Assembly: GCF_030064165.1 (NCBI RefSeq)
Contig: NZ_CP125947.1
Coordinates: 3,286,001 to 3,350,000, forward strand
Length of the DNA: 64,000 bases
Origin: Comamonas resistens
GTDB lineage: Bacteria; Pseudomonadota; Gammaproteobacteria; Burkholderiales; Burkholderiaceae_C
Direction of reading: 5' to 3'
The position numbers were made by a program, and so were the translations under genes. Below the pieces are notes generated by a model. It ran no database searches and was not told where the DNA came from. It saw only the letters and a list, made by a program, of their open reading frames with translations. Of this stretch, positions 12,475-63,443 are shown piece by piece (position 1 is the stretch's first letter; every line of letters begins with the position of its first letter).

Positions 12475-12566
12475 TGGGAGATTCCTCTTTTCGCCGCCCT
12501 CCCCTGACACCGGTAAGTGCCAAGCTTGGCGGGCAATAGATTCGTCAAAAATATCGCTATAAAGAA

Positions 12567-26730: not shown

Positions 26731-27342
26731 TCAGGCTCCAGCCAGCTCCCTGCGGCGAACCGGGCCGCTGCGCCGCTCAATTTCGGCTTGCAGCGGCTTG
26801 CGCAGCCCCATGGCAAAGCTCAATTCCGCCACCACGAACAGCGGGCCTATCACCAGCCCCATCACATCGTCAAAAAATGCGGGCTTGCGCCCCTCGTAAT
26901 AGTGACCGATGAACTGGATCACCCAGCCCACGCCAAACAGGCCCAGCCCCCACGCCAGCCAGAGCGCCGAGGACTGCGCGGCAATCGGTATGGCCAGAGC
27001 CAGCATGGTCGCGAGCAGCGCCGTCATGAACAAGCCGTAACGCAGATCGAGCCTGCAGTAGTAGACCGCAGCCGCCGAGGCGGCCACCAGGGCCAGTGAC
27101 AGCGGCACACCGGCCAGCAGCCCCCACTGCACGCGCGCCAGCAAGATGACGACAGCCCACATGATCATGGGCACACCGATGTAATGCGTGAAGATGTTGC
27201 GCGGATCGCGGTGGTAGTCCGCATAGCTGGAGAGCTGATCGACTAGGGCAGGACTTCCGCAAACAAGGATGCGCAAGGCCTGTGTCCAGGGTGCAAACGT
27301 TTTGCCTGAACCTGACTTGCGTAAGTCGTTTAGGGTTTTCAT
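26731..27342 (-). CDS. Mpo1-like (DUF962) membrane protein with repeat-encoded N-terminus
   Basis: A 203-residue integral membrane protein of the DUF962/YGL010w family, whose yeast member Mpo1 is a dioxygenase acting on 2-hydroxy fatty acids. The start of the domain is seen at Q-L-S-S-Y-A-D-Y-H-R-D-P-R-N-I-F-T-H-Y-I-G-V-P, with the metal-binding His residues. About five hydrophobic segments follow, and a second block is F-I-G-H-Y-Y-E-G-R-K-P-A. Residues 5-31 are encoded by the AGGACTTACG repeat (27250-27329). The ATG at 27342 has AAGGAG 8-9 bases upstream and lies just outside the repeat, so the extension is probably translated. Confidence 0.82.
   Translation of the reverse strand: MKTLNDLRKSGSGKTFAPWTQALRILVCGSPALVDQLSSYADYHRDPRNIFTHYIGVPMIMWAVVILLARVQWGLLAGVPLSLALVAASAAAVYYCRLDLRYGLFMTALLATMLALAIPIAAQSSALWLAWGLGLFGVGWVIQFIGHYYEGRKPAFFDDVMGLVIGPLFVVAELSFAMGLRKPLQAEIERRSGPVRRRELAGA
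27250..27329 (-). repeat. AGGACTTACG inverted-repeat element, copy A
   Basis: An 80-base element with near-perfect terminal inverted repeats: GACTTCCGCAA at one end and the complement of GACTTACGCAA at the other. It shares GCCTGAACCTGA and AACAAGG with copies at 33276 and 61937. It lies inside the coding start of the Mpo1-like gene and encodes D-L-R-K-S-G-S-G-K-T-F-A. Confidence 0.85.
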
Positions 27343-27403
27343 CGCTGTATCTCCTTGTGTCATGCACCAGCATGGTGGCGCAGCCTCAACCGCCTCGTCT
27401 GTC

Positions 27404-28201
27404 ATGCAACCGACACAAGCTCCTCTCCCGCAGTCCGGGCTGGCTCCCACGCGCAAGCGCAGTCTTCCCGCCACCTCTGCCAATGACCTCTGGGCCATCG
27501 TCCAGGCGGGTCGCTGGTTCCGTGCACTGCCACCCGAGCTGGTCCAGGAGTTGCAGCGCATGGCCAGACCCCGTTTTCTGGCACCTGGCGAATGGCTGTT
27601 TCGCCGGGGGGATGCACCATGCGGCATCTACGCCGTGGCGCGCGGCTCGCTCAATATCTCGGGCACGGCAAGCCTGCAGGAGCAAACCCGCACCGCGCTG
27701 CTGACTCTGGTGGAGCCGCCCATGTGGCTGGGCGAGATCGCCCTCTTCGATGGCGAGCCCCGCACCCATGACGCCCATGCCAACACGGCCTGCGCGCTGC
27801 TGCAGGTGCCGATTGCCCCGCTGCGCGACTGGCTCGATGTTCATCCTCATCATTGGCGCAGCATGGCGCTGCTGCTGACGGACAAGCTGCGCGCCAGCCT
27901 GACGGCGCTGGAGGAGCAAACCGTGTTGCCCGCCCCGCAGCGGCTGATGTGCCGGCTGGTACAAATGGCTCAGGGCCACGACCAGTGGGCCGACCGCCTG
28001 CGCACCCACCGCGAACTGGCGGTATCCCAGGAGCAACTGGCACGCATGCTGGGCCTGTCCCGCCAGACCACCAACCAGATCCTGCAGGACTTGCAGCAAG
28101 CGGGCTGGCTGCAAGTGCGTCGTGGCAGATTGGAAGTGCTGGACCTTCCCGCCCTGCGCGACGCCGCAGCCTTCGGCCAGACTCGCGCCCCGACAGGCTG
28201 A
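27404..28201 (+). CDS. Crp/Fnr-family transcriptional regulator
   Basis: A 265-residue regulator. The cyclic-nucleotide-binding-like beta barrel occupies about residues 35-150 (P-G-E-W-L-F-R-R-G-D-A-P-C-G-I-Y-A-V), followed by a long helix and a C-terminal winged helix with L-A-V-S-Q-E-Q-L-A-R-M-L-G-L-S-R-Q-T-T-N-Q-I-L. There are no N-terminal Fe-S cysteines like those of FNR, so oxygen sensing is unlikely. The start is uncertain: 27362 is also possible, but would leave only 19 bases to the divergent Mpo1-like gene. The target is unknown. Confidence 0.85.
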   Translation: MQPTQAPLPQSGLAPTRKRSLPATSANDLWAIVQAGRWFRALPPELVQELQRMARPRFLAPGEWLFRRGDAPCGIYAVARGSLNISGTASLQEQTRTALLTLVEPPMWLGEIALFDGEPRTHDAHANTACALLQVPIAPLRDWLDVHPHHWRSMALLLTDKLRASLTALEEQTVLPAPQRLMCRLVQMAQGHDQWADRLRTHRELAVSQEQLARMLGLSRQTTNQILQDLQQAGWLQVRRGRLEVLDLPALRDAAAFGQTRAPTG

Positions 28202-32811: not shown

Positions 32812-33261
32812 TCAGCCGTTCTTCAAAGCCAGCTCGACTCCTTTGTTGGCCAGAGCATCGGCGTGTTCATTGCCAGGATCACCCGCATGGCCCTTGACCC
32901 AGCGCCAGTCAATACGGTGACCGCTGCCTTGCACCAGAGCATCCAGCTGCTTCCAGAGTTCGGCATTCTTGACGGGCTCCTTGGAGGCCGTGACCCAGCC
33001 CTTGGCCTTCCAGCCGTGAATCCATTCGGTGATGCCTTTGCGCACATACTGGCTGTCCAGATAAAGCACCACATCGCAAGGCCTTTTCAGGGCCGACAAA
33101 GCCTGGATCACGGCCATCAGCTCCATGCGGTTGTTGGTGGTGCCCAGCTCTCCGCCAAACAACTCCTTTTGCGCCGCTCCGGCCTGCAGCAATGCGCCCC
33201 AGCCACCCGGGCCGGGATTGCCCTTGCAGGCACCGTCGGTATAGATCACAACTTGATTCAA
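32812..33261 (-). CDS. rnhA: Ribonuclease HI
   Basis: Degrades RNA in RNA-DNA hybrids during replication and repair. The 149-residue product has the four catalytic acids: D in [17 protein letters not shown] in N-N-R-M-E-L-M-A, D in L-Y-L-D-S-Q-Y-V and D in G-N-E-H-A-D-A-L-A. The G-I-T-E-W-I-H-G-W handle region is present. The start at 33261 abuts repeat copy B; the methyltransferase gene lies upstream on the same strand. Confidence 0.95.
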
Positions 33262-33275
33262 TTTCTTTCCTTGTT

Positions 33276-33357
33276 AGGACTTACGTAAACAAGGGTGCAC
33301 CAAGGACTGCAGCCCTTGAGGCGAAGCTCTTGTCTGAACCTGATTTGCGTAAGTCGT
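33276..33357 (-). repeat. AGGACTTACG inverted-repeat element, copy B
   Basis: An 82-base element with ends GACTTACGTAA and the complement of GACTTACGCAA, sharing TCTGAACCTGATTTGCGTAA with copy A apart from two bases. It lies between rnhA and the methyltransferase gene, whose last codons and stop (TAA at 33281-33283) fall inside it, encoding D-L-R-K-S-G-S-D-K-S-F-A and onward. Confidence 0.85.
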
Positions 33358-34198
33358 GCTTGTTTTGTCGGCTCAGCTCGCGCCAGACCGTATCCGGCGG
33401 CTGTTTGCTGGTGACGGGCGCCTTCATGCCGGCAGGCGCGCTGCGGCCACGCCAGCTGGGGGTCAGCATGCGCATGCCCTGCACGCGCTTGACGGCCACC
33501 ACGCAGTAAACACCGCCCAGCACCGGCCAGCAGCGATGGCCGAGCTTTTCCATGAACTGCCAGTGAGCCAGCCACTGCGCACTTTGCGTGGCAGGACGAT
33601 AACAGCCAAATTGCACGGCTTCGATCTCGAAGCTCAACAATCTGAGCCAATCCCGCAGCCGCCAGTAGCCCACGCCCAGGCTCAGATCGGGCAAATGTCC
33701 GGCACTGCGCTCCACACCACGCTGCAGCCCCAGCAAACTGGCCGGATTCAGGCCGCAGATCACCAGCCGGCCTTCCGGCACCAGAACGCGGGCCGCTTCG
33801 CGCAAGGCCGCATGGGGGTCCGCCGAGGACTCCAGCGTATGCGGCATCAGAAGCAGGTCCAGACTGCTTTCGGCAAACGGCAAAGCCGCAGCATCGGTCA
33901 CCAAAGAGGGGCGCACGGCATCATCCCCAGGCCGGGGCAAGTCTTGCTCCGCCCCACTGACCTGCCCGGCTTGCGCTACAGTGCTTGCTTTTGTATCGAT
34001 TTTTGCATCGGCGACGGTCTCGCCTGCATGCAGCGCCAGCCAACGATGCGGCATGCGGTTGCTACGCAGCCCCTGGAGCTGTGGCAAACCCAGCTGCACG
34101 GCGTGATAGCCAAAGATATCGGCCACCGCTTCGTCGCAGCGCTGCTGCTCCCATTCCAGGAGATAGTGCCCAAGGGCTGAGTCCGTCCAGTGTTGCAT
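33281..34198 (-). CDS. SAM-dependent methyltransferase with repeat-encoded tail
   Basis: A 305-residue class I methyltransferase (Methyltransf_11-like). The family core D-A-A-A-L-P-F-A-E-S-S-L-D-L-L-L-M-P-H-T-L-E-S-S lies at about residues 97-120, and E-G-R-L-V-I-C-G-L-N-P follows. The usual N-terminal glycine-rich motif is weak. Residues about 60-86 look like an inserted loop (A-D-A-K-I-D-T-K-A-S-T), and the last about 25 residues are encoded by repeat copy B. It diverges from gloB with only 19 bases between start codons. The substrate is unknown. Confidence 0.8.
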   Translation of the reverse strand: MQHWTDSALGHYLLEWEQQRCDEAVADIFGYHAVQLGLPQLQGLRSNRMPHRWLALHAGETVADAKIDTKASTVAQAGQVSGAEQDLPRPGDDAVRPSLVTDAAALPFAESSLDLLLMPHTLESSADPHAALREAARVLVPEGRLVICGLNPASLLGLQRGVERSAGHLPDLSLGVGYWRLRDWLRLLSFEIEAVQFGCYRPATQSAQWLAHWQFMEKLGHRCWPVLGGVYCVVAVKRVQGMRMLTPSWRGRSAPAGMKAPVTSKQPPDTVWRELSRQNKHDLRKSGSDKSFASRAAVLGAPLFT

Positions 34199-60467: not shown

Positions 60468-61871
60468 TCAGCTCTGCGCAGTCGACGCCAGTTGCGGGGC
60501 AGCTGTCGCCGCTCGCACGCGGCTGGCCGGGAAAGTCACGGCAAACTCAGAACCCTTGCCTTGCTCGCTCGCGATGCTGAGCACGGCGCCATGGCGCTGC
60601 AGCACATGCTTGACGATGGCCAGTCCCAGTCCTGTGCCCCCCGTATCGCGGGAACGGCTGCGATCCACACGGTAAAAACGCTCGGTCAGGCGGGCTACAT
60701 GCTTGGGATCAATGCCCGGGCCGGAATCCTTGACCGCAAAGCGTGCCGAACCATCGGCAAGCTGCACCCAGCTCACATCGATCTGCCCACCGGCCGGCGT
60801 GTAGCGCATGGCATTGCCCAGCAGATTGGAAAACGCGCTGTGCAGCTCTGCACTCGCGCCGGCGATGTCTCCGGCCTGCGCCAGCACGGCATCATCCGGG
60901 AAATTCAGCACATGGGGACGGTTCTGTTTGCGCGTCAGAGTGGCAGATAGACCGCGCGCTTCGTTCTCGCAGCGCTTAAGCAACTGGGCCACCGACATCC
61001 AGTCGTTATGGCTGGGCGGAGGGCTGCCCTCCAACCGGGACAACGTCAGCAGATCTTCCACCAGATGCTGCATGCGCTCGGCCTGCTGGGACATCAGTTC
61101 CAGATAGCGTTTGCGCTCGTCGGCCTCCAGAGGCAGGTTCTGCAAGGTCTCGACAAAGCCCGCCAACACCGTCAGCGGCGTGCGGATTTCATGAGAGACA
61201 TTGGCCACGAAATCACGGCGCATGGCCTCGGCCTGCTCCACCGCCGTCACATCGCGGGCCAGCAACAGCTTGCGCCCCTCGCCATAGCCATACAGCTGCA
61301 CCGACAGCTTGACGGGCCGCGACGGCGTGCTTTCGCGTCCCTGCATCACCAGATCCCGGGTGAAATCCTGCGCAGCAAAATATGCGCTGAACTGAGGGTC
61401 TCGCAGCAGATTGCCAATGCTTTGCATCACGTCGCGATTCGCATCAAAGCCGAACTGGCGCGCCGCGATCTGGTTGCACCATTCGATGCGGCCCTGGGCA
61501 TCCAGCAGAACCACGCCGTTGGGACTGGCCTGGAGTGCCGAAAGAATATCGCTGAGGCGCTGATCCCCCTGCTGGGCCTGCTGCACGGTCTGACGGATCC
61601 AGCGGCGCATGCGTATGCTGGCCTCACCCCAGATACCCGACAGATTGGGCGCATCGCCAAGACTGGACTGACGCAGCCAGCCCAGCAGGCGCGCACCGTT
61701 CCAGCTATCCACCAGCCACCAGATCCAGCCACCAATCAGTGCACCGGCCAGAGCTGCCAGACATTGCTGGACACCACCGGCCTGAGGCTGAACCCCGTAG
61801 CTCCAAACCAGCCAAGCCACCAGTGCCGCCGCGATCTGAGAGGCCAGTAAACGAAATCCACGCCACCCCAT
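60468..61871 (-). CDS. phoR: Phosphate-regulon sensor histidine kinase PhoR
   Basis: Inner-membrane kinase that phosphorylates PhoB under phosphate limitation. The 467-residue product has two N-terminal membrane segments (about 8-55), a PAS domain (about 105-200), the phospho-acceptor His in N-V-S-H-E-I-R-T-P-L (His 227) and the ATPase domain with G-G-T-G-L-G-L-A-I-V-K-H. It lies behind phoB, with repeat copy C (61937-62015) in the 155-base gap. Confidence 0.93.
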   Translation of the reverse strand: MGWRGFRLLASQIAAALVAWLVWSYGVQPQAGGVQQCLAALAGALIGGWIWWLVDSWNGARLLGWLRQSSLGDAPNLSGIWGEASIRMRRWIRQTVQQAQQGDQRLSDILSALQASPNGVVLLDAQGRIEWCNQIAARQFGFDANRDVMQSIGNLLRDPQFSAYFAAQDFTRDLVMQGRESTPSRPVKLSVQLYGYGEGRKLLLARDVTAVEQAEAMRRDFVANVSHEIRTPLTVLAGFVETLQNLPLEADERKRYLELMSQQAERMQHLVEDLLTLSRLEGSPPPSHNDWMSVAQLLKRCENEARGLSATLTRKQNRPHVLNFPDDAVLAQAGDIAGASAELHSAFSNLLGNAMRYTPAGGQIDVSWVQLADGSARFAVKDSGPGIDPKHVARLTERFYRVDRSRSRDTGGTGLGLAIVKHVLQRHGAVLSIASEQGKGSEFAVTFPASRVRAATAAPQLASTAQS

Positions 61872-61936
61872 ATTGATGTTCTCTTGTGATTTTTACGGAG
61901 GCCCGATCTGTGGTGATCGGGCCGTGGCAGTTCATG

Positions 61937-62015
61937 AGGACTTACGCCAGCGAGGATATGCCGAGATGTTGCCTTGAGGCAAAGCGTTGGCCTGAACCCG
62001 AGTGGCGTAAGCCGT
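61937..62015 (-). repeat. AGGACTTACG inverted-repeat element, copy C
   Basis: A 79-base element in the phoB-phoR gap with ends GACTTACGCCA and the complement of GGCTTACGCCA. It shares TTGAGGCAAAGC and GCCTGAACC with copies A and B. Both ends carry matching changes (CCA with TGG), which keep the pairing. Confidence 0.8.
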
Positions 62016-62026
62016 ATTTATCAGCC

Positions 62027-62722
62027 TCAGGCCAGGGCCTGCGCACTGAAGCGATAGCCTGCGCCGCGCACGGTCTCGATCAAGGTACCGGCCACGCCCA
62101 GCGATTCGCGCAGACGCTTGACATGCACATCGACCGTGCGCTCCTCGATGAACACATGGTCACCCCAGACCTTGTCCAGCAGCTGGGCTCGGCTGTGCAC
62201 ACGCTCCGGGTGCTTCATCAGATAGTTGAGCAGCTTGAACTCCGTAGGGCCGATCTTGAGTAGATCGCCCTGCCAGCTCACGCGGTGAGCCGCGGCGTCC
62301 AGCACCAACTCGCCGATGCTGACCTTGTCCTGCATTTGCTCGGGGGCACGGCGACGCAGCACGGCGCGAATGCGCGCCAGCAACTCCTGCGTGGAAAACG
62401 GCTTGGTGATGTAGTCATCCGCGCCGGCATCCAGCCCCGCCACCTTGTCCGGCTCATCGCCGCGCGCGGTCAGCATCAGAATGGGCACGCCTTTGGTGCG
62501 GCTATCGGCGCGCCATTTGCGCGCCAGCGACAGACCGCTGGCACCCGGCAACATCCAGTCCAGAAGTATCACCTCGGGCAGCACCGCATCCAGCTCGCGT
62601 TGCGCGGAAACACCGTCTTCCGCCCAGACAGGCTGGAAGCCGTTATGCCTCAAATTGACCGCAATCAACTCTGCAATCGCGGGTTCGTCCTCCACGATGA
62701 GGACCATGGGCATCTTCTTCAT
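62027..62722 (-). CDS. phoB: Phosphate-regulon response regulator PhoB
   Basis: OmpR-type activator of the Pho regulon. The 231-residue product has a receiver domain with acidic residues E11-D12, phospho-acceptor Asp at about residue 55 (V-I-L-L-D-W-M-L-P-G) and Lys in T-K-P-F-S. A winged helix follows (P-T-E-F-K-L-L-N-Y-L-M-K-H-P-E-R-V-H-S-R). The ATG at 62722 is preceded by AGGAGG. It sits between phoU and phoR on the same strand. Confidence 0.95.
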   Translation of the reverse strand: MKKMPMVLIVEDEPAIAELIAVNLRHNGFQPVWAEDGVSAQRELDAVLPEVILLDWMLPGASGLSLARKWRADSRTKGVPILMLTARGDEPDKVAGLDAGADDYITKPFSTQELLARIRAVLRRRAPEQMQDKVSIGELVLDAAAHRVSWQGDLLKIGPTEFKLLNYLMKHPERVHSRAQLLDKVWGDHVFIEERTVDVHVKRLRESLGVAGTLIETVRGAGYRFSAQALA

Positions 62723-62741
62723 CCCTTGAATTCCTCCTGCT

Positions 62742-63443
62742 TCACTGCAATGCAGATTCGATTTCCGCCATGGTCTGATGGCGCACATCCTTGCCCTCGA
62801 CAAGGTAGATGATCAGCTCGGCCACGTTCTTGGAGTGGTCGCCGATACGCTCGATCGCCTTGGCCAAGAATAGCAAGTCCAGGCTGGCCGAGATCGTGCG
62901 CGGGTCTTCCATCATGTAGGTGATGAGCTTGCGCACAAAGCCGTCAAACTCGTCGTCGATCAGGTCGTCTTCCTTGAGGATGGCCACTGCTGCCTTGGTA
63001 TCGAGGCGGGCAAATGCATCCAGAGTCTTGCGCAGCAAGTCGGACGCCATCTCGGCCGCCACACGTAGCTCGCCGCTGGGCAGGGAACGCGCCGCGCCGC
63101 TTTCGATGATGGCCTTGACCATGCGGGCCATCTTGCAGGCCTCGTCGCCCATGCGCTCCAGATTGGCCGTAGCCTTGGAAAACGCGATCAGCAGGCGCAG
63201 ATCACGCGCCGTGGGCTGGCGGCGGGCAATGATGGACGAGAGTTCATGGTCGATTTCCACTTCCATGGCGTTGACGCGATTTTCCGTCGCGATCACCTGG
63301 TCCACGGCTTCGCGGCTGAAGCTGGTCAGGGCGTAGACGGCATTGCGGATCTGCGATTCAACCAGGCCGCCCAGCTCCATCACGCGGGCCGAGACACGGT
63401 TGAGTTCGGCATCGAACTGGCTGGAGAGATGTTTTTCTGTCAT
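62742..63443 (-). CDS. phoU: Phosphate-specific transport system protein PhoU
   Basis: Peripheral regulator that holds PhoR inactive when the Pst transporter is filled with phosphate. The 233-residue product has the two PhoU three-helix repeats, with V-E-I-D-H-E-L-S-S-I-I-A-R-R-Q-P in the first and the related D-D-E-F-D-G-F-V-R-K-L stretch in the second. It lies between pstB and phoB, in the usual pst-phoU-phoB-phoR order. Confidence 0.95.
   Translation of the reverse strand: MTEKHLSSQFDAELNRVSARVMELGGLVESQIRNAVYALTSFSREAVDQVIATENRVNAMEVEIDHELSSIIARRQPTARDLRLLIAFSKATANLERMGDEACKMARMVKAIIESGAARSLPSGELRVAAEMASDLLRKTLDAFARLDTKAAVAILKEDDLIDDEFDGFVRKLITYMMEDPRTISASLDLLFLAKAIERIGDHSKNVAELIIYLVEGKDVRHQTMAEIESALQ

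Follow-up and report, generated by a model that had tools for sequence, protein, structure and literature searches.

A MITE-like element inserted in frame near the start of an Mpo1-like membrane protein gene in a Comamonas-like genome

An inverted-repeat element of about 82 bp, matched at 114 distinct places in a 5.3-Mb Comamonas-like genome, has very probably inserted into the gene of an Mpo1-like membrane protein, as judged from the insertion and its target duplication, an empty site in a relative, the reading frame and the absence of the insert from the relatives examined. On sequence grounds the element forms a MITE-like family, two of whose insertions into coding sequence were verified as in frame, and the event is a new instance of a type already known. 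The case offers a resolved before and after of mobile DNA turned coding sequence, with empty site, duplication and filled site, the insert of a single genome being set against dozens of relatives. A DNA-repair helicase provides a second case, so that one can ask directly if inserts of this sort are translated, if they are tolerated and if they have a use.

The insertion in the Mpo1-like gene

The window, by which the whole stretch of 64,000 nucleotides that was analysed is meant, contains the following features.

26731..27342, minus strand: Mpo1-like (DUF962) membrane protein gene, 203 aa, PF06127; residues 5-33 from the element and one target duplication
27244..27248, no strand: target-site duplication TAGGG, left, from flank comparison
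27331..27335, no strand: target-site duplication TAGGG, right, from flank comparison
27244..27330, minus strand: 87 inserted bases, 29 codons, NDLRKSGSGKTFAPWTQALRILVCGSPAL, from the empty site in L068/L210
27340..27342, minus strand: ancestral ATG start codon, outside the element, with an AAGGAG ribosome site just upstream
27249..27330, plus strand: copy A of the MITE-like element, 80-bp core 27250-27329 and one variable base per end, AACAAGG side left
33275..33358, plus strand: second window copy including its end bases, immediately upstream of the ribonuclease HI gene (32812-33249, minus strand), exact CTTGT duplication at the fixed offset
61936..62016, plus strand: third window copy including its end bases, flanked by phoB and a phoR-like gene, imperfect duplication TTCAT/TTTAT

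The Mpo1-like protein matches PF06127 with an E-value of 2.9e-21 and 75.8 bits against a cut-off of 24, and gave no hit in NCBIfam. The filled site in the window reads ATGAAAACCCTA, then 82 bp, then CCCTAGTCGATCAG, and the empty site in the nearest relative (Comamonas sp. Pcu381_bin24, a single genome represented by L068, L210 and G033) reads ATGAAAACCCTAGTCGATCAG, with the junction lying between ATGAAAACCCTA and GTCGATCAG. The net gain is 87 bp, made up of the element and one 5-bp duplication, or 29 in-frame codons for residues 5-33, and the protein lengths add up accordingly (203 = 174 + 29 aa). A preliminary description of this locus had assigned residues 5-31 to the element; its in-frame insert is retained and the span extended to residue 33. 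Its placing of the start codon and ribosome site outside the element is confirmed by the ATG at 27342 and the AAGGAG, and this ATG is kept in the Comamonas orthologues compared.

The element very probably transposed into the target CCCTA across codons 3-4 of a 174-aa Mpo1-like gene. As 87 bp correspond to 29 codons and the element has no stop codon on the strand and in the frame in which the gene reads it, the reading frame was kept and residues 5-33 were added without altering the start codon, the ribosome site or the membrane core. An in-frame TTG at residue 23 inside the element, before which no ribosome site was visible by eye, could in principle start translation there. A scan of 27150-27520 for promoters and terminators gave no hit.

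Comparison with orthologues

The orthologue set comprised 109 loci, namely 80 named ones, which scored best among 263 found, and a further 29 from the genus; less strong matches in the genus, for example G013 and G024, lie outside it. Six of the named loci recur among the 29, which leaves 103 distinct proteins of 164-180 aa. Orthologues had been expected to lack the inserted residues, and the insert was present in none of the 103 proteins. Between the initial methionine and a conserved YH, 108 of the 109 loci have a distance of 13 residues and L147 one of 18; in the window protein it is 42, that is 13 + 29. When R1, the covariance model of the element, was run on 43 of the 109 loci together with the window's own locus (L209), only the latter matched. 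A genus-wide DNA search with a 700-base query matched somewhere in 41 of 53 genomes, the own genome included, and among the matches listed the query was covered end to end only in the window's genome, the flanks forming separate pieces elsewhere. In G033 these pieces lie at 203766-203860 and 203856-204373 and overlap by 5 bp, which is the size of the duplication.

Copies and ends of the element

The model R1 was built from 46 aligned copies, selected by a script which demanded both ends with at most 4 mismatches and a minimum internal match. It gave 145 matches in the genome at E <= 0.01, which after merging of second-strand hits correspond to 114 places, all on contig C1; this number is possibly a lower bound (150 of 2184 first-look candidates were scored), and a few places are weak, the weakest reaching 26.5 bits. 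A strict pattern search yielded 48 strand-wise matches (25 + 23) compared with 0 for the reversed-pattern control, and BLAST with the element yielded 42. Within the window an element-derived 24-mer with up to 3 mismatches found copies 1 and 2 and missed copy 3, with 0.00 matches expected.

Most places (84/114) have a match length of 79-83 bp, 14 fall into a class of 96-97 bp and six into one of 111-113 bp, and the 80-bp core is the commonest form (40/114). By eye, the longer variants look as if they had been extended on the left by one or more GC-rich units, each about 16 bp long. Variants of 96 to 112 bp, apparently with one or two such extra units, were seen at L030, L038, L039, L043 and L050-L052.

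Terminal inverted repeats of the ASGACTTACGCAAA type are found on both sides in the 46 aligned copies, which had been selected for such ends. Of the 48 places with an exact duplication, 41 have a pyrimidine as the variable outermost base of the left end and 43 have a purine as that of the right end, and the ends are therefore read as YASGACTTACGC. The element thus described ends in YASGACTTACGCAAA, has a 5-bp target duplication and is about 82 bp long.

All three window copies that the preliminary description had listed (27250-27329, 33276-33357 and 61937-62015) were recovered, as were the internal motifs it had named near the two ends, with AACAAGG in copies 1 and 2, GCGAGG in copy 3 and CTGAACC in all three. 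Its common AGGACTTACG ends hold as an approximation: they are close in all copies, but copy A starts AGGACTTCCG, and copy 3 has CGTAAGCCGT at its right end where CGTAAGTCGT would be expected. The extent of about 80 bp suits the core 27250-27329, which with the end bases becomes 27249-27330 between the TAGGG repeats. Copy A scores 86.8 bits in the R1 search (E 7.1e-19) and is 86% identical to the query consensus. The neighbours of the third copy are both on the minus strand, phoB (62027-62788) being above the NCBIfam cut-off and the phoR-like gene (60699-61871) having PhoR as its best NCBIfam hit with a score below the cut-off.

Mobility and class of the element

At 48 of the 114 places the element, with its variable outermost base at either end, is bordered by an exact 5-bp target duplication, always at the same offset; the other 66 lack an exact one there. 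When the right flanks were shuffled among the copies in 2000 rounds, the mean was 0.74 and the maximum 5 duplications, and because the observed number far exceeds this permutation the element is judged mobile. In four other genomes 12 of 21 copies had an exact duplication, some of them apparently representing one site in two genomes. Empty sites occur in relatives both at the Mpo1-like site and at a site in yoaA, which lacks the element there. With a longest form of 113 bp the element has no room to encode its own transposase, and its copies are many, so that its classification as a MITE-like, non-autonomous DNA transposon is supported. It would be moved by transposition in trans, and the inverted ends together with the fixed-length duplications point to a transposase of the DDE type.

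REP sequences are palindromes of 20-40 nt without target duplication which accompany RAYT (Y1) transposases. The element resembles them in being repeated and palindromic and differs in its 82 bp with 5-bp target duplications, and assignment to this class was rejected; from the earlier alternative of a MITE or a REP-like sequence the MITE is kept. That the element is no transposable element but a palindrome of the REP-like or structural RNA type is scarcely conceivable. Its ends are inverted, and when folded as single-stranded DNA copies 2 and 3 outperform shuffled sequences (z -3.2 to -4.0), but copy A does not clearly do so (z -1.5 and -1.7), target duplications and an empty site exist, and over the element no Rfam family reaches its gathering score. 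RNAalifold predicts nine pairs, confined to the terminal arms, with a covariation term of 0.09; pairing so limited and with so little covariation does not indicate a role as RNA.

Search for an autonomous partner

An autonomous element with the same ends was found neither in the own genome nor in the regions fetched elsewhere, in a search which diverged ends could escape. In the own genome all 68 perfect 11-bp ASGACTTACGC ends lie inside element copies, and ends with one mismatch (111 + 102) are about as common as, or rarer than, those in the reversed-pattern control (176 + 206). Among 36 element-poor genomes 15 had an end site; 19 regions were fetched from them, and R1 matched 14 of these at E <= 1, leaving L261, L265, L268, L275 and L270. 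The end sites in L268 and L275 lie inside long open reading frames and look like chance. In L261 and L265, which belong to two genomes, a copy of an IS481-like element adjoins a lone AGGACTTACGCAAA; we take the family to be IS481, the rve_3 hit having been observed. This element was rejected as a partner, as its sixteen aligned copies have ends of their own (TTAGATGTACGGTCCCAGG...) and the AGGACTT motif lies about 75 bp outside. Twenty regions from 14 further genomes (19 with unpartnered ends among the sites listed and one with two ends 1.3 kb apart) all contain element copies, the sites listed for these genomes including none of G050, G075, G186 or G272.

A second in-frame copy in yoaA

A second in-frame copy lies at 2831839-2831918 of the own genome (L019:1501-1580) within yoaA; it is 99% identical to the consensus and is flanked by an exact TCAAG duplication. 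The product of this reading frame has 721 aa and reaches 729.6 bits against a cut-off of 680 for the NCBIfam DNA-repair helicase YoaA, with Helicase_C_2 following the insert. The insert adds 29 aa in a variable linker, the same 29-codon step as in the Mpo1-like gene. Inspection of this region by eye in 19 relatives showed that the linker preceding the SATLG motif varies in length and is without the insert; the longer linker of L258 does not contain it either. Since yoaA and the Mpo1-like gene use different strands of the element, they have no inserted peptide in common.

Altogether 86 open frames span element copies; 27 of them have a downstream GC3 of at least 0.70, and 19 were translated. 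A screen in which the empty site was joined, requiring at least 40 codons upstream and 25 downstream, kept nine of 67 candidates with GC3 >= 0.68 on both sides; of the screened in-gene candidates only yoaA was compared with relatives, and several others look antisense. Verified in-frame insertions in unrelated genes hence number two, the Mpo1-like gene and yoaA, and as N-terminal cases such as the former escape the screen, two in-gene copies among 114 is a lower bound.

Fate of the inserted residues

An AlphaFold model of the Mpo1-like protein based on 44 aligned sequences had a mean pLDDT of 87.7; in blocks of ten residues the values were 51, 55 and 65 for residues 1-30 and 89 to 98 for residues 31-150. 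In this model the insert reads as a flexible N-terminal addition which leaves the fold alone. The element-derived N-terminus is a statement at the level of DNA, from which we infer that the 29 residues are translated and that they are tolerated rather than useful.

That the insertion broke the gene, with the open frame a coincidence in a pseudogene, is unlikely. The insert is found in the own genome only, and a lucky open frame is easily obtained, the query consensus being open in three of six frames, for which reason the open frame alone is weak evidence. What speaks for an intact gene is that the remainder is open and 90% identical to the nearest orthologue, that PF06127 is still matched at 75.8 bits, and that the differences which copy A has accrued from the consensus brought neither frameshift nor stop. 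The opposite view, in which the 29 residues have been recruited and are now functional, for instance by altering membrane targeting or topology, is very improbable: the insert is in frame, N-terminal and retained, but it is known from one genome, model confidence is low across it, and the yoaA insert reads the opposite strand of the element, so that no common peptide exists.

More generally, the family might act as a frame-neutral donor of peptides, its insertions becoming 29-residue segments instead of knock-outs and some, such as that in the Mpo1-like gene, being kept for function; we consider this quite doubtful. The commonest form, the 80-bp core, adds 87 bp or 29 codons together with its duplication. 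The fraction of stop-free frames is 0.54 in 84 of the 114 copies compared with 0.37 in 100 composition-matched shuffles (range 0.32-0.40), an excess which is weak because related copies were counted as independent, and the insert length is divisible into codons at 48 of 114 places compared with 38 expected, a mild excess.

Spread among genomes and known systems

Further copies in related genomes, also anticipated earlier, were found. R1 matched 31 of 53 genomes of the genus, the own included, at E <= 0.01 with between 1 and 88 matches per genome (scoring of 88 candidates in each, under strict filters that lose weak matches), and in a family sample nine of 250 genomes, from six of 141 genera, at E <= 1e-5 (18 candidates scored per genome), the own and two of the same genus being among the nine. 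Searches with the element gave no match at E 0.01 in plasmid records and none at E 0.1 in phage records. Two viral contigs with an 18-mer match were taken as chance, the matches lying inside long open reading frames with R1 scores of only 15.2 and 10.0 bits. A pair of copies 545 bp apart occurs in three genomes (own 4024026/4024571, G044:C60 53224/53769 and G027:C554 10479/11024), and this recurrence suggests that some copies were inherited from a common ancestor.

Bacterial MITEs include Correia/NEMIS, RUP, ERIC and others. Like them, the element is short, has inverted ends and a target duplication, and occurs in about a hundred copies with a patchy distribution across related genomes; it differs in that the search found no autonomous parent and in its variable outermost base. 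To our knowledge no named MITE family combines these ends with a 5-bp duplication. Rickettsia palindromic elements are small palindromic repeats found in frame in protein genes, to which they add a short peptide, and on this general description the present insertions resemble them; they differ in host, and here there are two verified in-gene cases among 114 copies, on opposite strands.

Neighbouring genes

The element also supplies the start codon to the longest open reading frame of a neighbouring regulator, of which annotators should be warned. This divergent gene, Crp/Fnr-like according to Pfam, has its longest reading frame at 27269-28201 with the ATG inside the element, and another in-frame ATG lies at 27404. 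If the latter is used, the element would lie about 74 bp upstream of the regulator and may touch its control region. Elsewhere in the window Rfam identified an ilvH RNA at 12479-12546 and four closely spaced, equal-scoring tRNA genes at 1277-1721.
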